From NCBI RefSeq assembly GCF_034314045.1, contig NZ_JAVIWL010000001.1, positions 2,356,001 through 2,420,000 on the forward strand: a stretch of 64,000 nt of DNA. Reading direction: 5' to 3'. Source of the DNA: Glaciimonas sp. CA11.2. GTDB taxonomy: Bacteria > Pseudomonadota > Gammaproteobacteria > Burkholderiales > Burkholderiaceae_D. The translations under genes and the position numbers were made by a program. Shown piece by piece: positions 33,899 through 44,929 of this stretch (the first letter of the stretch is position 1; each line of letters opens with the position of its first letter). The notes under the pieces were generated by a model, which was not told the DNA's origin, did no database searches, and worked only from the letters and a program-made list of their open reading frames with translations.

Positions 33899-34370
33899 CG
33901 CTAAGGTTCTCAGAAAACAGAAATGCCTTTGGTTCGGTGGTGTTCTGGTTTTAACCGGTCACCATTTCTACGCGATAGTCGAACAACATTTTCTGCAATG
34001 CAACATGAATGTTTGTTGACTTTGGTTTTTTGGTTCTATATATTTATAAAACCAAAAAAAGAAACTTCATTTTAAATGGCGTTTGCATTCTTTAAAAGAG
34101 GATCAAAAGCACATTTTTCATTTTTTTGGCAATTATTAACACCTTAAAGCGGATGTCAGTTTCACTGTGGATCCGCTATTTATTTCTCATTGGCGGTACA
34201 TTAAACATATAAAACCGTGATTCATTCGTAATGAGGGCGGATTCAAATGCAGCGGTTGAGCCAACAAATTGCCCGGTAGCTGCGAACGTCAGCTGCGATA
34301 ATTTAATTGCGTATGTTGCATATGCTGGGTAAAAAAAGCTGTTAAACCCTTTAGCGTTTCTGAGAAAAAT
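33899..34370. other. 472-bp AT-rich spacer before the sugar-transport operon
   Basis: No reading frame with recognisable features. It contains a T-rich/A-rich inverted repeat, TTTTTTGGTT and AACCAAAAAA around a 13-base AT loop (34026-34059), which may end the hydratase transcript. The remaining part before 34371 should hold the promoter of the ABC importer; I could not assign -35/-10 boxes with confidence. Confidence 0.45.
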
Positions 34371-35930
34371 ATGCAGCAAGAAGACACTGTTGAATCAGTT
34401 CAACGATTGCCGACCGATCCTGCCGAGGCGATTATTGCGACGATTCTTTCGTTGAGAGACATCACTAAGCGATTTCCCGGCGTGCTGGCATTGGATCGTG
34501 TCAGTTTCGATTTGAAAAAGGGCGAGGCGCATGCGGTATGCGGTGAAAACGGTGCAGGAAAATCTACTCTGATGAAAGTCATCAGCGGAGTATTTCAAGC
34601 CGATGAAGGGACTATTCTTTATAAGGGTGAGGTGCGCCAGTTTGGATCTAGCGTAGAGGCGCAGGCCGTTGGTATTGCCATCATCCACCAGGAACTGAAT
34701 TTGGTGCCGCAACTGTCGGTTGCGGAAAACATCTTCCTGGCGCGTGAGCCGAAGAAAGGTTGGTTCATCGACAAAGCTAAAATGTGCGCAGACGCGCAAA
34801 TGTATCTTGATCGTCTTAAGTTGCAGGTTAAGCCAACTGATCTGGTGAAGTCGCTGTCAGTGGCGCAGCAACAAATGGTTGAGATTGCGAAGGCCTTGTC
34901 ATTAAACGCGGAAGTCCTGATCATGGACGAGCCGACTTCTTCCCTGACCGAAAGCGAAACCGAGCAGCTTTTCAAGATCATCAACGATCTGAAAAGCAAA
35001 GGTGTGTCGATTATTTATATCTCGCACCGCCTCGATGAAATGCAACACATCATTGACCGGGTGACGATCATGCGGGACGGGAAATATGTTAGTACCGATG
35101 ACTTTTCATCCATTAGCGTAGACCAGATAGTAACCAAAATGGTCGGCCGCTCGCTTGATAGCAAATTTCCCGAACGGACCTCCGTCCCCACCGAAGAGAC
35201 ATTACTTTCGGTCAAAGAATTGACCCGAAATGACGGCATTGGCCCAGTCAGTTTTACTCTGCGACGTGGCGAAATTTTAGGGTTCGCCGGGTTAATGGGT
35301 GCGGGTCGGACCGAAGTCGCACGTGCGATATTTGGCGCAGACCCGATTACTGGTGGGCAAATATTTTTAGGCGATAGCGAGGTGATGATCGATTCACCGA
35401 TTGACGCCATCAAGCATGGGATTGCCTATCTTTCCGAAGACCGGAAAAAAGATGGACTATTAATAAAAATGTCGGTGGCGAGCAATATTTCATTGACTAA
35501 TATTGATGCTGTTTCGGACCGATTTGGTTTCATACAGTTTGCGAAGGAAGAAACGATCGGTCAGGAATATGTGCGAGTTCTCGATATCAAAACGCCTTCA
35601 TGCCATCAGATCGTAAAAAATCTCTCAGGTGGAAATCAACAAAAAGTCGCGATCAGCAAATGGCTTTTCCGCGGCTCGAAAATATTATTCTTTGACGAGC
35701 CAACACGTGGTATCGATGTCGGGGCCAAATTCGCGATTTACACATTACTCGATAAGCTTGCTGCCGACGGCATTGGCGTGGTGATGATCACGTCGGAGTT
35801 GCCGGAAATTCTCGGCATGACCGACCGTGTTGCAGTTTTTCATGAGGGAAAAATAGCGGCAATGTTGACTACAAAAAATACCTCTCAAGAAGAGATCATG
35901 CATCACGCATCCGGTCGATCCGGGATATAA
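34371..35930 (+). CDS. Sugar ABC importer, ATP-binding protein (RbsA/XylG type)
   Basis: 519 residues with two fused ATPase domains, as in ribose, xylose and rhamnose importers. The first has Walker A GENGAGKST and Walker B LIMDEPTSSLTESE. The second has the degenerate GLMGAGRTEVARAIFG in place of Walker A, then signature LSGGNQQKVAISKWL and FFDEPTRGIDVGAK, all normal for this family. It is followed by permease and binding-protein genes, together a CUT2-type importer. The adjacent enzymes suggest a 6-deoxyhexose or related aldose as substrate; the protein itself does not show the specificity. Confidence 0.92.
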   Translation: MQQEDTVESVQRLPTDPAEAIIATILSLRDITKRFPGVLALDRVSFDLKKGEAHAVCGENGAGKSTLMKVISGVFQADEGTILYKGEVRQFGSSVEAQAVGIAIIHQELNLVPQLSVAENIFLAREPKKGWFIDKAKMCADAQMYLDRLKLQVKPTDLVKSLSVAQQQMVEIAKALSLNAEVLIMDEPTSSLTESETEQLFKIINDLKSKGVSIIYISHRLDEMQHIIDRVTIMRDGKYVSTDDFSSISVDQIVTKMVGRSLDSKFPERTSVPTEETLLSVKELTRNDGIGPVSFTLRRGEILGFAGLMGAGRTEVARAIFGADPITGGQIFLGDSEVMIDSPIDAIKHGIAYLSEDRKKDGLLIKMSVASNISLTNIDAVSDRFGFIQFAKEETIGQEYVRVLDIKTPSCHQIVKNLSGGNQQKVAISKWLFRGSKILFFDEPTRGIDVGAKFAIYTLLDKLAADGIGVVMITSELPEILGMTDRVAVFHEGKIAAMLTTKNTSQEEIMHHASGRSGI

Positions 35931-35956
35931 AAATTAAAATAATCTGGAGACAAAGA

Positions 35957-36940
35957 ATGAATGAAAAACAAAAAGATCTGGTCCAAAAGTTCGCCGCATT
36001 GGGCAGTTTATTGATTTTGTGCATTACGTTTTCGATGACTAGCAGTGCGTTCTTTTCGATGAGCAACGGGATGAGTGTTGCCTTACAAGTGACATCCATT
36101 GCGTATTTGGGTATCGGCGCGACCTGCGTGATCATTACCGGTGGTATCGATTTGAGCGTCGGCTCTGTGTTGGCATTGTCGGGCGTTGTCGCAGCGCTGG
36201 CGGTCAAGGCGGGCGTGGCGGTACCGTTGGGTATGTTTCTCGGAATCTTGGTTGGGGCGCTGTGTGGTGCGATAAACGGCTTCTTTATTACCAATCTAAA
36301 ACTTCCTCCTTTTATTGCCACGCTTGGGATGATGTTGGTAGCGCGGGGTGTGGCATTGCAAATTACTGGCGCGCGTCCTGTCTCAGGGCTTGGTGACGCG
36401 TTCGGCGTCCTAGGAAACGGTGCATTGTTTCGGATCGTGAAGGAAACCACAAACGGGTTTCCTGATGTCGTGTTTCCCGGCATTCCTTATCCCGTCATCA
36501 TCATGGTAGTTCTTGCGGTGCTGGTGTCAATTATGTTGAGCCGTACCACTTTCGGCAGACACATCTATGCGGTGGGATCAAATGCGGAGGCTGCACGTTT
36601 GTCTGGTGTCAACGTCGCCCGTGTCACTTTGTCGACTTATGTGATTTCGGGCGCGCTTGCGGGTCTTGCTGGCTGCGTACTGATGTCACGTCTGGTCACC
36701 GCACAGCCGAATGAAGGCGTCATGTATGAACTCGACGCAATTGCCAGCGCGGTCATTGGTGGCACGTCTCTAATTGGCGGTATCGGTACCATTTCGGGGA
36801 CTGCAATTGGCGCTTTTGTCATCGGGATTTTACGTAACGGTTTGAACATGAATGGTGTTTCAAGCTTCGTCCAGCAAATCATTATTGGCGTAGTCATTCT
36901 GTTGACGGTCTGGATTGATCAGATGCGCAATCGCCGCTAG
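35957..36940 (+). CDS. Sugar ABC importer, permease (RbsC type)
   Basis: 327-residue inner-membrane permease with about eight to ten hydrophobic segments. The CUT2 permease signature is present: IITGGIDLSVGSVLALSGV, and SNAEAARLSGVNVARV with the EAA-like loop, then IASAVIGGTSLIGGIGTISGT. It begins 26 bp after the ATPase gene. The binding-protein gene follows only after 182 bp containing a MITE-like element. Confidence 0.92.
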   Translation: MNEKQKDLVQKFAALGSLLILCITFSMTSSAFFSMSNGMSVALQVTSIAYLGIGATCVIITGGIDLSVGSVLALSGVVAALAVKAGVAVPLGMFLGILVGALCGAINGFFITNLKLPPFIATLGMMLVARGVALQITGARPVSGLGDAFGVLGNGALFRIVKETTNGFPDVVFPGIPYPVIIMVVLAVLVSIMLSRTTFGRHIYAVGSNAEAARLSGVNVARVTLSTYVISGALAGLAGCVLMSRLVTAQPNEGVMYELDAIASAVIGGTSLIGGIGTISGTAIGAFVIGILRNGLNMNGVSSFVQQIIIGVVILLTVWIDQMRNRR

Positions 36941-36998
36941 AACACTGCCTGATGCGGGACGACCGCTTTGGGCGTTGTAAATACGTAGTTTAATAAAA

Positions 36999-37103
36999 TT
37001 GGACTCACGCCAAACCGTCCCAATAACGCGTGCCGACGAAGACAGTACGCTAGTACGGCTAGGAAAGCACAACGTAGTTGGGGCGATTTTGCGTAAGTCC
37101 TAA
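36999..37103 (+). mobile_element. MITE-like element, copy 2 (about 105 bp)
   Basis: Right end GGGGCGATTTTGCGTAAGTCCTAAA matches copy 1 almost exactly; the left end TTGGACTCACGCCAAA is a more diverged inverted copy, with the inverted similarity reaching about 30 bp. The whole can fold into one long hairpin. It lies between the permease and binding-protein genes, ending about 20 bp before the binding-protein start. No gene inside. Confidence 0.72.
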
Positions 37104-37122
37104 AATATAGAGGAGAACAAAG

Positions 37123-38076
37123 ATGAATAACTTCAAGAAATTTTCTATCGGGCTATTGACCGCTACGCTGGCGTTTTCAATTCACTCAGCGCTTGCAGCC
37201 GGTGGAGAAATCGCGGTGATTGTGAAGTCGGCAAACTCCAATTACTGGCAGAACGTTCAAAAGGGCGCAGCAGCGGCGCTCAAGGACACCAAAGGTTACA
37301 CAATGTCGTTTCAGGGACCGGCGTCGGAATCTGCGATTGCGGATGAAGTCAGCATGGTGGAGAACGCCGTGAACCGAAAAGTGGCCGGTATTGTGTTGGC
37401 CCCGTCAGATCCTGATGCGCTGATTCCGGCAATGAAGAAAGCCTGGGAAGCCAAAATTCCCGTGATCCTGATTGACTCTATGGTGTCGGATGGCGGCAAA
37501 AAATATTATCAGTCCTTCCTTTCCACGGATAACGATGCCGCTGGCGCGCTGTGTGCGAAAGAGTTGATCGCCAAAATTGGTACGACTGGCAAGATCGCGG
37601 TGATGTCGTATGTTGCGGGCGCTGGTTCAGAAATTGGTCGTGTCGGCGGCTTTAAAAAATATATTGCGGATAACTCCAAGCTGCACATTGTGAATACTTT
37701 CTATTCGCAATCGCAAATGGCGACCGCACTGAATCAAACCACTGATGTGCTGACTGCTAATCCTGATCTAAAGGGAATCTTTGGTGCCAACGAACCGACC
37801 GCAGTCGGCATGGCTCGCGCACTCAAGCAGTCGGGCAAAGCTGGGAAGGTCGTGGCAATTGGTTTTGATGGTAATCAAGATCTGCAAGAGTTTGTAAAAG
37901 ATGGAACGATTGATGCGACGGCGGTGCAAGGTTCTTATCAAATGGGTGCGCTGGGAATCAAAACGTTGACCAGTGTGATCGAAGGAAAAACCGTGCCGAA
38001 GTTTGTCAATACCGGCGTTGTGATGGTAAGGAAGAAAAATATTGATCTTCCCGAAGCCAAGAATGTTTTGTATTAA
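37123..38076 (+). CDS. Sugar ABC importer, periplasmic binding protein (RbsB type)
   Basis: 317 residues with a signal peptide (MNNFKKFSIGLLTATLAFSI, cleavage near ALA-AGG). The periplasmic type-1 binding fold shows IAVIVKSANSNYWQNVQKGA, VAGIVLAPSDPDALIPA, PVILIDSMV and AIGFDGNQDLQEF. A strong GAGGAGAA site precedes the ATG. Likely ligand is an aldose handled by the downstream enzymes, inferred from position. The binding gene normally needs higher expression than the membrane parts, so the inserted repeat just upstream may matter. Confidence 0.93.
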   Translation: MNNFKKFSIGLLTATLAFSIHSALAAGGEIAVIVKSANSNYWQNVQKGAAAALKDTKGYTMSFQGPASESAIADEVSMVENAVNRKVAGIVLAPSDPDALIPAMKKAWEAKIPVILIDSMVSDGGKKYYQSFLSTDNDAAGALCAKELIAKIGTTGKIAVMSYVAGAGSEIGRVGGFKKYIADNSKLHIVNTFYSQSQMATALNQTTDVLTANPDLKGIFGANEPTAVGMARALKQSGKAGKVVAIGFDGNQDLQEFVKDGTIDATAVQGSYQMGALGIKTLTSVIEGKTVPKFVNTGVVMVRKKNIDLPEAKNVLY

Positions 38077-38115
38077 TTGCCGGACGCAAATAAAAAGGTC
38101 GTTAAAGCATCCTGT

Positions 38116-38207
38116 GAGTCATGGCGGAGGCGTTGCATATTGATGATGGATTTGCAGGCTTCCGCATGCAATGCGATACCAATCTCGCCATGGCTAAAAC
38201 GACTCAT
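38116..38207. repeat. Nested imperfect inverted repeats after the binding-protein gene
   Basis: Three pairs of complementary blocks occur in mirror order: TGAGTC/GACTCA, ATGGCG/CGCCAT and GTTGCAT/ATGCAAT, with unequal spacers. A transcript could fold into a long interrupted hairpin between the binding-protein and dehydrogenase genes. Its meaning is not clear. Confidence 0.45.
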
Positions 38208-38253
38208 GGATACTCTTTCGTTTCTTTTTTAAAAGAAATGGGAAGGGTATCCA
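38207..38253. promoter_or_regulatory. 47-bp interrupted palindrome upstream of the zinc dehydrogenase gene
   Basis: TGGATAC at 38207-38213 pairs with GTATCCA at 38247-38253, and TTTCTTTT pairs with AAAAGAAA in the centre. The outer and inner arms are symmetrically placed. It lies 48 bp before the dehydrogenase start, a position suiting an operator, perhaps for the GntR regulator encoded next; a hairpin in the leader is the alternative. Confidence 0.45.
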
Positions 38254-38300
38254 GGTAGTACTCAGGAAATGCAGATTTCGTAATGAAAAGAGATAAATAA

Positions 38301-39314
38301 ATGATGAAAACCCTTGTCTGTGAAAGCCCTGGCATCCTGCAAATGGTGCAAAGACCCATGCCACAACGTGGGCCGGACGAAGTGTTGATGCGTGTCAGGC
38401 GGGTCGGTATTTGCGGCACGGATATGCATATCTATCAGGGCACGCAACCCTATCTTGATTATCCAAGAGTGATGGGTCATGAATTGTCGGGGGAGGTTGT
38501 AGAAGCACCTTGCACGTCTGCGTTAAAGGCGGGTGATACCGTCTACGTCATGCCTTATATATCTTGTGGCATTTGCGTAGCTTGCAAAAAAGGTAAAACG
38601 AATTGCTGTACCAATATTCAGGTATTGGGCGTTCATCGCGATGGTGGCCTGACGGAGTATTTGTCGATTCCGTTGGCATTTGCTTTTAAGACAGACGGCA
38701 TCTCGCTGGATGATGCTGCGATGATTGAATTTCTTGCGATTGGCGCGCACGCCGTGCGCCGTGCCGCGATTCAAGCGGGGCAGAAAGTGTTGATCACCGG
38801 AGCCGGACCTATTGGTATTGCCACGGCATTGTTTGCGCGTCTGCGCGGCGCAGAAGTGTGTGTATTGGATACGCGGATTGATCGACTTCAGTTTTGTCGT
38901 GATGCGATGCAAATTTCCCATACGGTTGAGGTCGGTGAGACGGATAAGTCGCAACTGGCTGCGATGACTAACCAAGATTTTTTTGATGTGGTATTCGATG
39001 CAACCGGCAATACGAAAGCAATGGAAAGAGGATTCGAATTTGTCGCTCATGGTGGAACCTATGTGCTGGTTTCGATTGTTCGCGGTGATATCTCGTTTTC
39101 CGATCCTGAATTTCATAAACGTGAAATGACATTGCTTGGCAGTCGTAACGCAACCATGGAAGATTTTAAAGAGGTTTTAAAAGCAATGCGTGCCGGCTTG
39201 GTACCGACAAAACTGCTGAATACCCATCGCACCACCATGGATGCGCTTCCTGTGGTTTTTTCGGAATGGCTTAAACCGTCGGCAGGCGTCATCAAAGCGA
39301 TCGTTGAATGTTGA
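38301..39314 (+). CDS. Zinc-dependent alcohol dehydrogenase (MDR family)
   Basis: 337-residue medium-chain dehydrogenase. Catalytic zinc ligands are in VGICGTDMHIYQG and VMGHELSGEV; structural-zinc cysteines follow in CGICVACKKGKTNCC. The NAD-binding motif is ITGAGPIGIATALFA, with an Asp (VLDT) after it, favouring NAD over NADP. Relatives act on sugar alcohols and sugar acids such as L-galactonate or L-gulonate. Here it may oxidise a 2-keto-3-deoxy sugar acid or the sugar acid itself; this is inferred from neighbours, not from the sequence. Confidence 0.88.
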   Translation: MMKTLVCESPGILQMVQRPMPQRGPDEVLMRVRRVGICGTDMHIYQGTQPYLDYPRVMGHELSGEVVEAPCTSALKAGDTVYVMPYISCGICVACKKGKTNCCTNIQVLGVHRDGGLTEYLSIPLAFAFKTDGISLDDAAMIEFLAIGAHAVRRAAIQAGQKVLITGAGPIGIATALFARLRGAEVCVLDTRIDRLQFCRDAMQISHTVEVGETDKSQLAAMTNQDFFDVVFDATGNTKAMERGFEFVAHGGTYVLVSIVRGDISFSDPEFHKREMTLLGSRNATMEDFKEVLKAMRAGLVPTKLLNTHRTTMDALPVVFSEWLKPSAGVIKAIVEC

Positions 39315-39571
39315 GCTGGTGAATGCGTCTAATACTGTCATTTGACACAAGCCGCTTTCAAATCGCCTTCTTTAGGCGCACGCTGATTGGTACAAAAGTG
39401 AAGTGCCAAAGCGTAGAAAAACGTTTCACGGCATCGCGACGGTGCGAGCCAATGTCAAGAGTTTAGCATCGTGAGGACTCGTTTTTTAATGGTAAAATAC
39501 TATGCAATTATCTTCCCAACCTTCTGTGGTTTCGACTAAGCGCGACACTGCGACTGCACGGTCAATATCTC

Positions 39572-40468
39572 ATGTCAAAACCGCCAACCATCTTCAAAAA
39601 AACGACCAACTTTCTGTTGGGGTTTATTGCGCAAAACATGACTGTGTCAGAGGTACTGCCTTCGGAGCAGTATCTGGCAACGGTATGTCACGCGAGCAGA
39701 ACGGTGGTGCGCAGTGTGATTGCTTATTTGGACGAACGCAGATTAATCAACGGTTTAACCGACCGTCAGTTGATCAGGCTTCCAATCGAGGACGATTATT
39801 TCGATGTCTCGGAATTGCAATCAGGACTGGAACGTATCCAGCAAGTGATGATGGAGCGGGTCTTCCAGAAAGATATGCAGCCGGGAGCCGAATTTTCGGA
39901 AGCAGAACTAGCGCGAGAAGCGGGGACCAGCACCGTGAGCATTCGGGAGTTTTTGATCGGTTTTTCTCGCTTCGGGTTGATCGAAAAAAAGCCCCGTGGC
40001 GGTTGGCGGCTGTGTGCGTTCGATCTTTCATTTGCACGCGAACTGGCAGATATGCGTCAGATGTTCGAGGTGGCTGCGGTCGAACATTTCTGCAGCTTGC
40101 TACCGACCGATCCGGCCTACAAAGAACTCGATCGACTGATTGTCAAACACGCACAATTAGAGCCGAAAATGAAGACCCGATATGGCGAGTTTCCCGCACT
40201 CGATCGCGAGTTTCATACGTTCCTTATCGGTCTGTTGCGCAACCGGTTTGCGCAAGAATTCTACGATATTGTTTCTTTCGTTTTTCATTACCATTATCAA
40301 TGGGACAAAGGCGAGGAAATGCAGCGCAACAGTTATGCCTTGAAAGAGCATCTGGCGATTCTGCATGCGCTTTCCGAGCGCAATCCGGAAAAGGCGCTCG
40401 ACTGTATGCGCAGCCATTTGGATTCCTCTCGCACGTCCTTGATGAAATCAATCCGTACGCGAGGATAG
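39572..40468 (+). CDS. GntR-family (FCD) regulator with two winged-helix segments
   Basis: 298 residues. A first winged-helix-like segment covers about 8-70 (LPSEQYLATVCHASRTVVRS matches the GntR pattern). A second lies at about 86-147 (FSEAELAREAGTSTVSIREFL, then RFGLIEKKPRGGW). The FCD ligand domain follows, with the metal-binding Asp and His in LDREFHTFLIG and later His in KEHLAILHALSE and MRSHLDSS. FadR/FCD regulators usually have one DNA-binding domain and about 230-250 residues, so the extra module is unusual. It probably senses a sugar acid and controls the surrounding island. Confidence 0.87.
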   Translation: MSKPPTIFKKTTNFLLGFIAQNMTVSEVLPSEQYLATVCHASRTVVRSVIAYLDERRLINGLTDRQLIRLPIEDDYFDVSELQSGLERIQQVMMERVFQKDMQPGAEFSEAELAREAGTSTVSIREFLIGFSRFGLIEKKPRGGWRLCAFDLSFARELADMRQMFEVAAVEHFCSLLPTDPAYKELDRLIVKHAQLEPKMKTRYGEFPALDREFHTFLIGLLRNRFAQEFYDIVSFVFHYHYQWDKGEEMQRNSYALKEHLAILHALSERNPEKALDCMRSHLDSSRTSLMKSIRTRG

Positions 40469-40589
40469 GTTTTTCTGCAGACTTAAATCGCTTTATCACT
40501 TTCCGTGCCGGTGCAGATTGCTTTCTGCGTCGGCTTAACATCGCCCAACTATTTTCTTTTCAATTTAACTTGCTTAAGGGGAATGCCGC

Positions 40590-40922
40590 ATGGTGACCTC
40601 AACCAGACCCACGCCTGCGTCGTCTGTACTGCTGATGTCGGCACGGGATAACTGCGTGATAGCACGGTCGGCCTTGCGCGCTGGCGACGTGGTACTGATT
40701 GACGACCGGGAAGTCTTGTTGACGCAAAATATCGACATTGGCCATAAGTTGGCACGTTGCGCACTTCAGGTTGGTGACAAGGTATTGCGATACGGCGCAC
40801 CAATTGGCAGCGTTTCGCAACCTATCGCCATTGGGCAACATATTCATACCCATAATTTGGAGAGTGATTACATTCCGACCTATACCCTGAGCGGTGAAGG
40901 TCATCATTTTATCGAGAGGTAA
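40590..40922 (+). CDS. UxaA-type sugar-acid dehydratase, small (SAF-domain) subunit
   Basis: 110 residues corresponding to the N-terminal SAF domain of altronate dehydratase UxaA. Conserved elements: SARDNCVIARSALRAGD, IDIGHKLARCALQVGD, VLRYGAPIGSVSQPIAIGQHIHTHN. The large catalytic part is encoded by the next gene, 5 bp downstream, so the enzyme is split, as in Campylobacter jejuni and some other bacteria. The pair should dehydrate an aldonic acid to a 2-keto-3-deoxy acid. Confidence 0.88.
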   Translation: MVTSTRPTPASSVLLMSARDNCVIARSALRAGDVVLIDDREVLLTQNIDIGHKLARCALQVGDKVLRYGAPIGSVSQPIAIGQHIHTHNLESDYIPTYTLSGEGHHFIER

Positions 40923-40927
40923 TACCG

Positions 40928-42139
40928 ATGAGTGCTAGCGAAATTTCTGGCTATTTGCGCGCTGACGGACGCAAAGGCATACGCAATATTGTAGTCGTCG
41001 CCTATATGGTTGAGTGCGCTCATCATGTGGCGCGGCAAGTGGTGAACGTGTTTCCTAATCAACCGGTACATCTGATTGGGTTTGCCGGATGTTTTCCCAA
41101 CGAATATGCTGATCAAGTCATGCGGCGTCTGGTGACGCATCCAAATGTAGGCGCGGTTTTACTCGTTTCGCTGGGATGCGAAGGCTTCAACAAAAATGGA
41201 TTAGCCGAGGTAGTTGCCGCCAGTGAACGTCCGGTGCACACGATTACGATTCAGGAAAACAAAGGAAGTCGGGCCAGTGTCAGTAGTGGCGTTGAATGGG
41301 TTCAATGGGCGCTTGACGACATTGCACGGCAGCCGAGAGTACCTATGGCGCTTAGTGAGTTGGTCGTCGCCACCATATGTGGCGGTTCAGACAGTACCAG
41401 CGGCATCACTGCAAATCCGGCAGTCGGCTATGCGTTCGATGTGCTGATCGATGCTGGCAGCACTTGTATTTTTGAAGAAACGGGCGAACTGGTCGGCTGT
41501 GAATATCACATGAAGAACCGCGCAGTGACACCAGAACTCGGCGATGCAATTGTGCAAACTGTTGAGAAGGCGGCGAATTATTACACCATTATGGGACACG
41601 GCAGTTTCTCTCCGGGCAATGCAGATGGCGGCTTGACGACGCAGGAGGAGAAGTCGCTAGGTGCATACGCCAAGAGTGGAGCGTCATCTATCTGTGGGAT
41701 TTTAAAGCCGGGTGATCAAGCGCCAGGCGGCGGTTTATATTTGCTGGATGTCGTGCCTGATGGCGAGCCGCGCTTTGGGTTTCCCAATATCTCCGACAAT
41801 GCTGAAATCGTTGAGCTGATCTCCTGCGGCGCGCATATTACTTTATTTACGACGGGGCGCGGTTCGGTGGTTGGATCGGCGATTTCACCGGTGATCAAAG
41901 TCTGTGCCAACCCGCACACCTTCGAACAATTGTCTGACGATATGGATATCAATGCCGGACGAATTTTGAATGGCGAAGCGACATTGGCAGAAGTCGGCAC
42001 CGAAATTGTGACGATGGTGTGCGATGTGGCGAATGGTGGTTTGAGCCGATCAGAAGAGTTGGGACATCAAGAATTCATCCTCACCTATAAACGATTTGAG
42101 CCGTCCGGTCCGAGCTGTTTTCCGCTGCGCTCGCTGTGA
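40928..42139 (+). CDS. UxaA-type sugar-acid dehydratase, large subunit
   Basis: 403 residues matching the C-terminal catalytic region of altronate/galactarate dehydratases (UxaA/GarD superfamily). Motifs: GYLRADGRKGIRNIVVVAYM at the N-terminus, CGGSDSTSGITANPAVGYAFD, GSFSPGNADGGLTTQEEKSLG and LFTTGRGSVVGSAISPVIKVCAN (quoted in part: TTGRGSVVGSAISP). Family members need a divalent metal, often iron. It works with the SAF subunit upstream. Together with the neighbouring lactonase, the likely substrate is L-fuconate or a stereochemically similar acid; this is inference. Confidence 0.9.
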   Translation: MSASEISGYLRADGRKGIRNIVVVAYMVECAHHVARQVVNVFPNQPVHLIGFAGCFPNEYADQVMRRLVTHPNVGAVLLVSLGCEGFNKNGLAEVVAASERPVHTITIQENKGSRASVSSGVEWVQWALDDIARQPRVPMALSELVVATICGGSDSTSGITANPAVGYAFDVLIDAGSTCIFEETGELVGCEYHMKNRAVTPELGDAIVQTVEKAANYYTIMGHGSFSPGNADGGLTTQEEKSLGAYAKSGASSICGILKPGDQAPGGGLYLLDVVPDGEPRFGFPNISDNAEIVELISCGAHITLFTTGRGSVVGSAISPVIKVCANPHTFEQLSDDMDINAGRILNGEATLAEVGTEIVTMVCDVANGGLSRSEELGHQEFILTYKRFEPSGPSCFPLRSL

Positions 42140-42242
42140 ATGAGTTGGGTAGCTTGAGTATGAAAGACTTAGCCTGAATTTATCTTTCGTTCGACGTTTA
42201 ACCTCAAAAAGTGTTTTTTTACGTCTTTAAATTGGATCAATT

Positions 42243-43256
42243 ATGCTTGCTAAAGCGTCTTCTGCGTTGCCTCGCAGCGGGTTATCACTGACAGCATTGG
42301 GAATGGGCTGCGCTGTTATTGGCGGGCTTTACATAGCGACTAGCGAAGCGGATGCGCGCGCTGCCTTGGATGAAGCTTGGGCGCTTGGACTACGGTATTT
42401 TGATACCGCGCCCTATTATGGTTTTACCTTGTCAGAACATCGCTTAGGTGCGGCATTGCGCGAGCGCCCACGCGACGAATATGTGATTAGCACCAAAGTC
42501 GGACGCCTCATGAAACCAGATAAGAGTGTGCGTGCGGGCGAGAGTGATTGGGCTGCGCCGCTGCCGTTTCGCCCGATGTTCGACTATAGTTACGACGGCA
42601 TAATGCGCTCGCACGAAGATAGTTTGCAACGACTTGGGCTGACGCATATTGATGTGCTGTTTGTGCACGATATTGGGCGGATAACGCACGCTGACAGGCA
42701 TGACCACTATTGGGGGCAACTGACTGTGGGTGGCGGCTTCAAAGCGCTCGATGATCTGCGCAGAAGCGGACAGGTTTCGGCAATTGGCCTCGGCGTCAAC
42801 GAATGGGAGGTCGTCTACGCCAGCATGCAGGAAATCGATCTGGATTGCACGCTGTTGGCCGGGCGGTATACATTGCTGGAACAGGCAAGCCTTTCACCAT
42901 TGCTCGACGCCTGCCAACGTGATGGAAATGCCATCGTCATTGGAGGGCCGTTTAACTCGGGCATACTTGCTGGCAATCCAAAATATAATTACATGGATGC
43001 ACCAGCAGATATTGTTTTGCGCGTCAAAGAGTTGGAGGCGGTGTGTCTGGAATTTGCGGTCCCATTACCTGCTGCAGCGCTGCAATTTCCGATGGCGCAT
43101 CCTGCCGTCGTATCGTGTATTCCTGGCGGCAAAGACGTTGCGCAGCTTCGTCAAAACGTAGCCTGGTTTGATATGCCGATACCGACAGAACTATGGACAA
43201 CGTTAAAATCGCGCGGGCTGATCGACGAGCGCGCACCGGTTCCGGTCAATATTTAA
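42243..43256 (+). CDS. Aldo/keto reductase, D-threo-aldose 1-dehydrogenase (L-fucose dehydrogenase) type
   Basis: 337 residues of the aldo/keto reductase fold. Active-site residues: Asp54 and Tyr58/59 in RYFDTAPYYG, Lys85 in ISTKVGRL, and His in VLFVHDIGR. The sequence around FRPMFDYSYDGIMRSHEDSLQRLG and IPGGKDVAQL is typical of the group that oxidises L-fucose, L-galactose or D-arabinose at C1 to the lactone. The lactonase gene follows after 15 bp, which fits that reaction. Substrate not proven. Confidence 0.88.
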   Translation: MLAKASSALPRSGLSLTALGMGCAVIGGLYIATSEADARAALDEAWALGLRYFDTAPYYGFTLSEHRLGAALRERPRDEYVISTKVGRLMKPDKSVRAGESDWAAPLPFRPMFDYSYDGIMRSHEDSLQRLGLTHIDVLFVHDIGRITHADRHDHYWGQLTVGGGFKALDDLRRSGQVSAIGLGVNEWEVVYASMQEIDLDCTLLAGRYTLLEQASLSPLLDACQRDGNAIVIGGPFNSGILAGNPKYNYMDAPADIVLRVKELEAVCLEFAVPLPAAALQFPMAHPAVVSCIPGGKDVAQLRQNVAWFDMPIPTELWTTLKSRGLIDERAPVPVNI

Positions 43257-43271
43257 CCTGAAAGTATAAGC

Positions 43272-44099
43272 ATGCGAATTGATGCCCATCAACATTTCTG
43301 GTTGCTTGCAGATCGCGGCGGCGCATGGCCGCCGCCTGAGCTGGCTGTAATTTGCCAAGATTTTTTGCCCGACGATTTGAAGCCGCATTTAGCCCGGAGT
43401 GGGATAGACGGGACGGTATTAGTACAGACTTTACCGAGCGAGGATGACACTACTTTTATGCTCGGGCTGGCGGCGCGTTATGCATTTATTCAGGCGGTTG
43501 TGGGATGGGTCGATTTGAAAGCGGCAGATGCTTCCGAAAGAATACAAATGCTCGCCATGCATCCGAAACTCAAAGGACTCCGTCCAATGCTGCAGGATAT
43601 CCCGGATGACGATTGGATAGCCGACCCCGCACTTGCGCCAGCTATCGATACGATGCAGCGCTATAACCTCAGTCTCGATGCATTGGTTACGCCGCGCCAC
43701 CTATCTTCTTTGCTGGTGTTTGCGAATCGTTTTCCGAACATGCCGATAGTTATTAATCATGCGGCTAAACCGTCGATTGCAAGTGGCGATATCACATTGT
43801 GGAAACAGAACATGACGCGGTTGGCGGCGTATCCGCAGATACATTGCAAACTATCCGGATTGGTAACGGAGGCAGCGCTGCAATGGCAGGTCGCTGACCT
43901 TCGGCCAGTGGTTGATCATGTGCTTGACGCTTTTGGTGCGGATCGGGTGATGTGGGGCAGCGACTGGCCGGTAGTGGATCTGGCGGCGGATTACGGACGC
44001 TGGACAGAGACGACCGATTTGCTTCTTGTTGGCTTGGGTGATTCAGACAGAAAAAAAGTACTCGGCCTGAACGCACAAGGTTTTTACCGCATCGATTAG
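43272..44099 (+). CDS. Amidohydrolase, L-fuconolactonase type
   Basis: 275 residues of the COG3618 amidohydrolase family. The metal-site start is RIDAHQHFWLL; later ligand motifs are VINHAAKP and MWGSDWPV, the latter with the catalytic Asp. Family members hydrolyse L-fucono-1,4-lactone and similar aldonolactones to the free acid. It lies between the dehydrogenase that would make the lactone and a mutarotase, and 10 bp separate it from the latter. Confidence 0.9.
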   Translation: MRIDAHQHFWLLADRGGAWPPPELAVICQDFLPDDLKPHLARSGIDGTVLVQTLPSEDDTTFMLGLAARYAFIQAVVGWVDLKAADASERIQMLAMHPKLKGLRPMLQDIPDDDWIADPALAPAIDTMQRYNLSLDALVTPRHLSSLLVFANRFPNMPIVINHAAKPSIASGDITLWKQNMTRLAAYPQIHCKLSGLVTEAALQWQVADLRPVVDHVLDAFGADRVMWGSDWPVVDLAADYGRWTETTDLLLVGLGDSDRKKVLGLNAQGFYRID

Positions 44100-44108
44100 G
44101 AATTAAAA

Positions 44109-44438
44109 ATGCAAAGAATGGGAATGGTGATCGGTATCGATCCTGCTAGTATCGTTCAATACAAGGCTTTGCATACGGCGGTATGGCCGCAGGTGTTGGC
44201 GACATTGAAGGCAGCAAATATTCGCAACTATACAATTTTCTTACGTGAGCCGGAAAATCTTCTTTTTAGCTATTGGGAGTATTACGGCAAGAATTTTGAA
44301 GCTGACATGGCGCAGATTGCAGCGGACCGGATGACTCAAAAATGGTGGGCGGTGTGCGGCCCGTGTCAATTACCGCTGGCGTCAAGGGGCGATGGTGAGC
44401 ATTGGGCAACGATGGAAGAAGTATTTCATATGGATTAA
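44109..44438 (+). CDS. DUF718 (RhaM/FucU-like function) sugar mutarotase
   Basis: 109 residues of the L-rhamnose mutarotase family (DUF718): MGMVIGIDPASIVQYKALHTAVWPQVLATL (quoted in part: YKALHTAVWPQVLATL), NYTIFLREPENLLFSYWEYYG, QKWWAVCGPCQLPL. Interconverts alpha and beta anomers so that the dehydrogenase gets the right one. The family acts on L-rhamnose, and members in L-fucose loci also occur. Last gene of the island; a terminator lies 78 bp beyond. Confidence 0.9.
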   Translation: MQRMGMVIGIDPASIVQYKALHTAVWPQVLATLKAANIRNYTIFLREPENLLFSYWEYYGKNFEADMAQIAADRMTQKWWAVCGPCQLPLASRGDGEHWATMEEVFHMD

Positions 44439-44515: not shown

Positions 44516-44546
44516 AAAAAACCCGACATAACGTCGGGTTTTTGTC
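44516..44546. terminator. Bidirectional terminator between the sugar island and the entericidin-like gene
   Basis: Stem ACCCGAC / GTCGGGT with loop ATAAC, flanked by an A-run on the left and T-run on the right, so it can stop transcription from both the + strand island and the minus-strand lipoprotein gene. Confidence 0.88.
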
Positions 44547-44583
44547 GATGGCACGTACCTGACGCCATCTTGGGTATGGCTAT

Positions 44584-44733
44584 TTACATTTTAGCTTTGG
44601 TATCTTGCGCAGCGTCTTGCACCTTCTGACCGCCCGACTGGACGTCTTTGCCCATGCCTTCGAACGTGTTACATGCTGATAGGATACCGAACAAGCTGAT
44701 TATTGCTGCGATCGAAACGATTTTCTTGATCAT
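44584..44733 (-). CDS. Entericidin A/B-family small lipoprotein
   Basis: A 49-residue protein read directly from the minus strand, starting MIKKIVSIAAIISLFGILSA-C. The lipobox LSAC places the lipidated Cys at 21, and the mature part (NTFEGMGKDVQSGGQ, then KVQDAAQDTKAKM) has the GMGKDVQ..G pattern of entericidins. AGGAGC lies six bases before the ATG. Entericidins are tiny membrane lipoproteins linked to stress or toxin-antidote behaviour in E. coli; only one is present here. Too short for usual gene callers. Confidence 0.88.
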   Translation of the reverse strand: MIKKIVSIAAIISLFGILSACNTFEGMGKDVQSGGQKVQDAAQDTKAKM

Positions 44734-44929
44734 GGTTGGCTCCTGTGCTGTTAATAAAAGTGCTGCATCTACGGTGAAAATTCTGTTGTACTCATTTTGA
44801 CTGATCTCATTAGTTGAGAAAAGACAGCCATAAGATTAACTTTTCTCGAAGATTGTGTCCATAGTCAACGCATATTTTTGTTGTTTCCAGGAAAATAGGG
44901 CCTGACATTTTCATTCGGCATGCGTATAA

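Follow-up and report, generated by a model that had tools for sequence, protein, structure and literature searches.

The island and its setting

Which sugar, or sugars, would a ten-gene island in the genome of Glaciimonas sp. CA11.2 degrade? The island lies in a 64,000-nt stretch of contig NZ_JAVIWL010000001.1 (positions 2,356,001 to 2,420,000), referred to here as the window, and the original prediction had described it as a variant of the non-phosphorylative L-fucose pathway. We regard a combined L-fucose/L-galactose catabolic operon as the probable answer, with every reaction, substrate and flux being predicted from sequence. All ten one-strand genes first proposed are found as open reading frames (ORFs) of the + strand, spanning 34371 to 44438, and Pfam agrees with the family name given to each:

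34371..35930, + strand: CUT2-type sugar ABC transporter ATPase (Pfam ABC_tran; best NCBIfam match RbsA, 587 bits, cut-off 745)
35957..36940, + strand: CUT2-type permease (BPD_transp_2)
37123..38076, + strand: sugar-binding protein of the importer (Peripla_BP_4; best solved relative Avi_5133, 4wut, 461 bits)
38301..39314, + strand: zinc-dependent medium-chain dehydrogenase/reductase (MDR), LgoD-type, predicted L-galactonate 5-dehydrogenase from its identity to LgoD and its neighbours (ADH_N/ADH_zinc_N)
39572..40468, + strand: GntR/FCD-family regulator (GntR+FCD)
40590..40922, + strand: small subunit (SAF domain, UxaN) of the predicted L-fuconate dehydratase (SAF)
40928..42139, + strand: large subunit (UxaC in our locus labels) of the split UxaA-type dehydratase (GD_AH_second+GD_AH_C)
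42243..43256, + strand: aldo/keto reductase (AKR), predicted from solved relatives as L-fucose/L-galactose 1-dehydrogenase (Aldo_ket_red)
43272..44099, + strand: amidohydrolase lactonase, predicted L-fucono/L-galactono-lactonase (Amidohydro_2)
44109..44438, + strand: RhaM-family (DUF718) mutarotase, predicted L-fucose mutarotase (rhaM; 7byu/7byw, L-fucose mutarotase, 169 bits)

The island is flanked by an enoyl-CoA hydratase gene on one side and marC on the other, and the interval between them justifies the term. Among the five genus genomes compared (this one included) it measures about 11.0 kb in CA11.2 and about 10.9 kb in the congener G096, and shrinks to 0.34 kb in G014, 1.4 kb in G054 and 2.2 kb in G077; tblastn of the island proteins against these three short intervals gives no match. 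The island of G096 (L127, - strand) contains F22, a mannitol-dehydrogenase-family gene discussed below, and nine of the ten island genes; the lactonase gene was not found there.

For comparison, 80 loci with the large dehydratase subunit were fetched (ten titled Janthinobacterium or Oxalobacteraceae, six Paraburkholderia and 64 others) and their gene content was scored by tblastn. Homologues of all ten genes are kept in 10/10 Oxalobacteraceae loci, and the ten-gene grouping therefore exceeds chance. The large subunit itself is found in only 6 of 116 family genomes (E<=1e-150), so its distribution is scattered. Distinct island genomes number 14, with G072 and G117, which have identical coordinates, counted once.

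The proposed pathway and its first steps

In the proposed operon the CUT2 importer would take up the sugar, the mutarotase would supply the right anomer, the AKR, which would be NAD(P)-dependent, would oxidise C1, and the amidohydrolase would open the lactone. The split UxaA-type enzyme would then convert L-fuconate to L-2-keto-3-deoxyfuconate (L-KDF), and FucF and FucG, encoded 1.9 Mb away, would take this to pyruvate and L-lactate. L-galactonate would be formed by the same first enzymes as L-fuconate, and the zinc dehydrogenase would oxidise it at C5 to D-tagaturonate. In relatives the product of the next gene, F22, would reduce D-tagaturonate to D-altronate, to be dehydrated to 2-keto-3-deoxygluconate (KDG); in the CA11.2 genome, UxaB of the hexuronate operon could stand in for F22, which is deleted.

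The homologues of the mutarotase, 1-dehydrogenase and lactonase of route III (FucM, A, B, C, F, G; the non-phosphorylating L-fucose pathway that ends in pyruvate and L-lactate) share one cluster here, as judged by homology. The mutarotase reaches 50.4 bits in NCBIfam (cut-off 99.6). All five best solved relatives of the AKR are named L-galactose dehydrogenase (best 97 bits), and motif positions that are presumably catalytic can be located in its sequence; it matches the AKR of a Burkholderia plasmid locus (L110) at 63% and those of Paraburkholderia at 52-57%. The best NCBIfam match of the lactonase is L-fucono-1,5-lactonase (215 bits, cut-off 400), and its best solved relative is 4dlf, named Amidohydrolase 2 (147 bits).

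The CUT2 importer that had been claimed is borne out by the homology of its ATPase, permease and binding-protein families. In a fold comparison with a moderate-confidence model (pLDDT 70.3) the binding protein is 72% identical to 4wut, the ligand of which we take to be D-fucose; a literature search for that ligand returned no paper naming the protein or the entry. Published systems, here those of Paraburkholderia mimosarum, S. meliloti, Halomonas, Luteolibacter and C. jejuni, are likened to the island by published description. The S. meliloti CUT2 binding protein SMc02774, the gene of which adjoins an annotated L-fucose dehydrogenase gene, binds L-fucose with a Kd of 3.6 nM, and this rhizobial binder does not react with D-fucose (PMC3454389). 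Lys35, Arg173, Asn223 and Gln269 of the island protein are compatible with four residues named in that paper, given one assumed gap in the alignment, and the same four residues also occur in ribose-binding proteins.

A split UxaA-type dehydratase

The SAF and catalytic domains of the dehydratase are on separate proteins, and the small subunit is encoded in the same locus as the large one in 16/16 Oxalobacteraceae and Paraburkholderia loci and in 57 of the 64 others. In a tree built with 29 of the 80 loci, from which P. mimosarum is absent, the window's large subunit groups with all 29 locus sequences (29/29) at 99/99 support, with E. coli UxaA and the genome's own UxaA outside; the small subunit was undetected in three of these loci (L036, L079 and L082). 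Cys30, Cys55 and Cys84 are present in 37/38 rows of the dehydratase alignment and Cys151 in 38/38; they may correspond to the four cysteines that PMC6336799 describes as conserved across the UxaA/GarD family except in sulfolactate sulfo-lyase. The sole row without the first three cysteines, as that paper describes for sulfolactate sulfo-lyase, is from locus L105 (6009-13343), which codes for a second large subunit of the UxaA type; in its vicinity, as judged by eye, are genes for an ABC transporter and two dehydrogenases as well as an acetolactate-synthase-like gene.

A subunit pair in P. mimosarum has been assigned from gene context as a heteromeric UxaA-type L-fuconate dehydratase, and the L-fucose cluster of this organism, in which from the wording of the paper we infer the pair to lie, is induced by L-fucose only (PMC6336799). 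All six Paraburkholderia loci (6/6) have the order UxaN-UxaC-AKR-lactonase-FucF-FucG. Homology, the tree and this Paraburkholderia gene context together support the place of the split dehydratase in an L-fucose route, as the original prediction had it.

A further, rather doubtful proposal is that the one split enzyme dehydrates both L-fuconate and D-altronate, and so would join the L-fucose and L-galactose routes. It is made because the island dehydratase is the sole UxaA-family match (E<=1e-20, with the genome's own UxaA as query) in two of six genomes searched (G048 and G092), the six being drawn from the 14 distinct island genomes; should the L-galactonate route operate in these two, D-altronate must be dehydrated by the split enzyme or by one of another family. 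L-fuconate has the same C2-C4 configuration as D-arabinonate, D-altronate and L-galactonate. This configuration is described as common to the latter three, and a D-arabinonate dehydratase shows relative activities of 12% on D-altronate, 5.6% on L-fuconate and 2.4% on L-galactonate (PMC6336799). Two points count against a dual enzyme: at least one further UxaA-family enzyme is present in the remaining 4/6 genomes, and the kcat/Km of the related D-arabinonate dehydratase is about 6,700-fold lower on D-altronate (PMC6336799). If the proposal is true, the operon would degrade both sugars with its single dehydratase, the second acid first being inverted at C5 by the zinc dehydrogenase and the adjacent reductase to give the stereochemistry that this enzyme accepts, and the tagaturonate reductase would be dispensable wherever a canonical UxaB exists.

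Unlinked genes for the lower pathway

FucF and FucG are encoded together at C1:4325342-4327033, in a separate operon 1.9 Mb from the island, where they lie between a GntR gene and an MFS gene. They are 71% and 66% identical, respectively, to the proteins of locus L005. The best solved match of FucF is 8y11 (368 bits; titled 'SDR family oxidoreductase'), which we take to be the L-KDF dehydrogenase (L-KDFDH) of H. huttiense, and that of FucG is 8gsr, an L-2,4-diketo-3-deoxyrhamnonate hydrolase (353 bits). Homologues of the L-KDF 4-dehydrogenase and 2,4-diketo acid hydrolase of route III are thus present in the genome and outside the island. The non-phosphorylative L-fucose route first proposed stands, by homology, as regards importer, mutarotase, AKR, lactonase and split dehydratase, and falls short as a complete pathway in the island, where the gene set ends at L-KDF.

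Both genes are within the fetched locus in 10/10 Oxalobacteraceae and 6/6 Paraburkholderia cases; among the other 64 loci, FucF is found in 14 (at least 55% identity) and FucG in 22 (at least 48%). G096 has the same unlinked arrangement, and G054 keeps GntR-FucF-FucG while missing the large dehydratase subunit; the separate operon therefore either predates the island in the genus or is independent of it. A candidate operator of the FucF/FucG operon, TGGTCTTACCA, is present in this genome, G096 and G054. The DapA-type L-KDF aldolase of route I (C. jejuni) is not among the ten island genes according to Pfam. A DapA-like gene, recognised by eye, is located elsewhere in the genome at L104 (4851-13508), together with a fused UxaA-type dehydratase, FAH-family, amino-acid-type ABC transporter and aldehyde dehydrogenase genes; by eye, this set resembles a Route II sugar-acid cluster.

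The zinc dehydrogenase and a probable L-galactose branch

Identity of the zinc dehydrogenase to E. coli LgoD is 43.6% (282 bits), against 31.7% (140 bits) to RspB and 32.3% (139 bits) to Tdh; the range over RspB, Tdh, YdjJ, GatD, IdnD, YdjL and Ahr, the seven other E. coli proteins included with LgoD in its tree, is 22.8-32.3%. The enzyme is most readily understood as an L-galactonate 5-dehydrogenase of the LgoD type, which would provide a second (L-galactose) branch. The original prediction read this gene as part of the L-fucose variant; its LgoD-like sequence and the neighbours of its relatives point instead to L-galactonate.

Chief among these neighbours is F22, the best NCBIfam match of which is tagaturonate reductase (210 bits, cut-off 359). 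Among 116 family genomes the dehydrogenase is found in seven (E<=1e-120) and F22 in six (E<=1e-70), the difference being the CA11.2 genome, and F22 is directly downstream of the dehydrogenase in all six. F22 likewise follows the dehydrogenase directly in 9/10 fetched Oxalobacteraceae loci and in 8/11 plasmid loci (eleven fetched from 15 listed among 3915 records, with 4/11 gene-annotated). A fused UxaA gene is also downstream of the dehydrogenase in L110, L112, L114 (after an MFS gene) and L117, and the family genome G078 (L129) shares this set and has no match to the split dehydratase at E<=1e-150. KDG-kinase-like genes are present in L112 and L117, with 28% identity to a kinase of L005; that extra L005 gene is by eye a PfkB/KDG kinase, and its L112 counterpart is annotated 'sugar kinase'. 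The Burkholderia plasmid locus L110 has the order importer-AKR-lactonase-zinc dehydrogenase-F22-UxaA, with no match to FucF or FucG within its 21 kb, and its gene set is the one that would be expected for L-galactose alone. The comparison suggests a likely role for the zinc dehydrogenase and the mannitol-dehydrogenase-family gene, which annotated plasmid records name generically or variously.

A lost tagaturonate-reductase-like gene

The F22 gene next door has been deleted in this genome. Between the dehydrogenase and GntR genes lie 257 bp in CA11.2, against about 1.29 kb in G096, and this short gap contains a putative remnant:

39315..39357, + strand: relic of the 5' end of the lost F22 gene (about 1.0 kb missing relative to G096)

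Directly after the dehydrogenase stop, 43 bp can be aligned with the start of F22 in G096; the match then resumes only about 90 bp short of the GntR gene. These 43 bp, the short stretch from which the relic is assigned, are the last of a 184-column alignment to G096 (76% overall) that starts inside the dehydrogenase gene; the same region matches L005 at 71% over 159 bp. A three-stop match over the relic was obtained with a query that started inside the L005 dehydrogenase gene, and is therefore partly that gene in another frame.

Elsewhere the genome has a uxaC-uxaA-uxaB-like (hexuronate) operon, so that homologues of the tagaturonate reductase and altronate dehydratase of the LgoD route are available, and its canonical UxaB could replace F22. 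Canonical UxaB (at least 63% identity to that of CA11.2) is found in 5/14 distinct island genomes, the two that lack F22 among them, and each of the 14 (14/14) has at least one of F22 and canonical UxaB.

Alternative readings

Several observations weigh against a combined L-fucose/L-galactose operon. LgoD and the island dehydrogenases group with modest support (87/82) and a long-branch warning, and pairing of F22 with the dehydrogenase is not strict, F22 being missing here and in L008. Of the three plasmid loci in which F22 does not directly follow, two from Neorhizobium (L115 and L120) have the order importer-AKR-lactonase-zinc dehydrogenase-mutarotase-FucF, and one (L116) has the dehydrogenase without any other gene searched. 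Of the 80 loci, only the ten from Oxalobacteraceae have the dehydrogenase (at least 55% identity) alongside the split dehydratase, and the F22/UxaB complementarity is suggestive only, with a chance of 0.11 given the margins. The congener G096 has no lactonase gene, its AKR and mutarotase matches being about 106 bp apart. All NCBIfam matches listed score under the curated cut-off, so the names of the island proteins rest on best matches. A common operator for the two operons was looked for and not found (TGGTCTTACCA against the arms upstream of the island, TTTGGTTTT/AAAACCAAA); the operon of FucF and FucG carries a GntR gene of its own and a differing candidate operator, and its co-regulation with the island therefore lacks support.

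The Neorhizobium loci and the absence of F22 here and in L008 would fit an operon for L-fucose only, in which the zinc dehydrogenase acts on L-fuconate or L-KDF or is a leftover, as would L-fucose binding by SMc02774, likened by description (PMC3454389). We think this rather unlikely, given the LgoD-like sequence of the enzyme, the presence of F22 and fused UxaA around the same dehydrogenase in L110, L112, L114, L117 and L129, and the fact that FucF already oxidises L-KDF in the described route (PMC11199699). An operon for D-arabinose or D-arabinonate, with the AKR as D-arabinose dehydrogenase and the UxaA-type enzyme as D-arabinonate dehydratase, seems improbable. In P. mimosarum an AKR gene does cluster with a UxaA-type D-arabinonate dehydratase gene, and D-arabinose, L-fucose and L-galactose are all substrates of that AKR (PMC6336799); the enzymes of the C. 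jejuni fuc operon break down D-arabinose as well (PMC6946681). Against this, SuyAB is the only heteromeric enzyme among the characterised family members, the split pair was assigned to L-fuconate, and the D-arabinose and L-fucose clusters of P. mimosarum are each induced by their own sugar only (PMC6336799); the best matches of the island mutarotase and lactonase are L-fucose enzymes. Membership of the dehydratase in the UxaA/GarD family, and galactarate dehydratase as the sole NCBIfam match of both subunits, might suggest a hexuronate or hexarate (altronate/galactarate) operon, but that match scores 194.8 bits where the cut-off is 730.85, and the lactonase and mutarotase would be left unexplained. 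With the large subunit placed apart from the group that holds E. coli UxaA and the genome's own, and the uxaC-uxaA-uxaB-like operon elsewhere, we reject a hexuronate operon; a hexuronate or hexarate role is highly improbable, and the outcome raised by the original prediction, activity on hexuronates only, is unlikely.

Control elements and flanking features

The following features lie upstream and downstream of the operon:

34016..34044, + strand: upstream promoter-like site (TTGACT and TATATT, 17 nt apart)
34021-34029 / 34048-34056: outer arms (TTTGGTTTT / AAAACCAAA) of an inverted repeat that overlaps the promoter-like site, a candidate operator
34148..34177, + strand: leader hairpin, then ATTTATTT (largely conserved in G096; fold z-score -3.3)
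44516..44543, + strand: hairpin at the operon end, flanked by A/T runs and read as a terminator (absent from the terminator-scan list)
44560-44740, - strand: short reading frame, small lipoprotein-like (entericidin-like, by eye), directly after the operon

The promoter-like site and the inverted repeat are conserved with G096, and this conservation is the support for the site, there being no excess of promoter-like sites across the region (9 found, 11.8 expected). Regulation via the leader hairpin is possible; in an Rfam search of the region all matches were below the gathering score. The next ORF of at least 90 aa downstream of the mutarotase gene is on the opposite strand.

Comparison with known systems

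L-fucose and L-galactose both occur in plant cell walls. The combination of genes had been thought possibly undescribed, a view we reject: its main elements are in PMC6336799 (the split L-fuconate dehydratase) and PMC5507952 (combined Halomonas loci). The split UxaA-type L-fuconate dehydratase is not new, given the proposal in PMC6336799 and the six Paraburkholderia loci, and both routes, with their chemistry, are already known; what is new is mainly the combination of parts and the parts lost. No report of a combined L-fucose/L-galactose operon in Oxalobacteraceae was found within the open-licence PMC literature, and the island would show the two routes stitched together in this family.

The L-fucose cluster of P. 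mimosarum (Route III) likewise has a split UxaA-type dehydratase assigned to L-fuconate (PMC6336799). The six Paraburkholderia loci differ from the island in their importer and in having no match to the zinc dehydrogenase, F22 or mutarotase at the thresholds used; FucF and FucG are linked there and unlinked in the Glaciimonas island genome. Halomonas loci contain L-fucose/L-fuconate genes with lgoD, uxaA, and uxaB or uxaF; like the island, those of HL-48 and HL-93 join L-fucose/L-fuconate genes with an LgoD-type gene, but a TRAP system is proposed for sugar acids in Halomonas (PMC5507952) where the island, which belongs to a different family and is partly dismantled, has a CUT2 importer, an AKR and the split UxaA-type dehydratase.

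In the E. coli LgoD-UxaB-UxaA route, the LgoD of which is 43.6% identical to the island enzyme as noted above, lgoD adjoins lgoR and the galactonate symporter gene lgoT, and the 16 kb shown has no sugar oxidation genes. The dehydratase of C. jejuni is, like that of the island, of the split UxaA type, as the original prediction also stated. The fuc operon of C. jejuni has, like the island, dehydratase (Cj0483), hydrolase and mutarotase genes, and differs in its FabG-like first dehydrogenase (FucX) and predicted DapA-type end; L-galactose gave C. jejuni no growth gain (PMC6946681). In the lguABCDEF cluster of Luteolibacter, LguD oxidises L-galactonate, LguC reduces D-tagaturonate and LguB dehydrates D-altronate (PMC12632266). 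This dual L-glucose/L-galactose pathway and the Bacteroides vulgatus L-galactose enzymes BVU_0219/BVU_0222 pair an aldose dehydrogenase with an L-galactonate 5-dehydrogenase, as the island is predicted to do; Luteolibacter also has the tagaturonate reductase and altronate dehydratase, its LguA is inactive on L-fucose, and an L-fuconate branch is not mentioned in the available text (PMC12632266).

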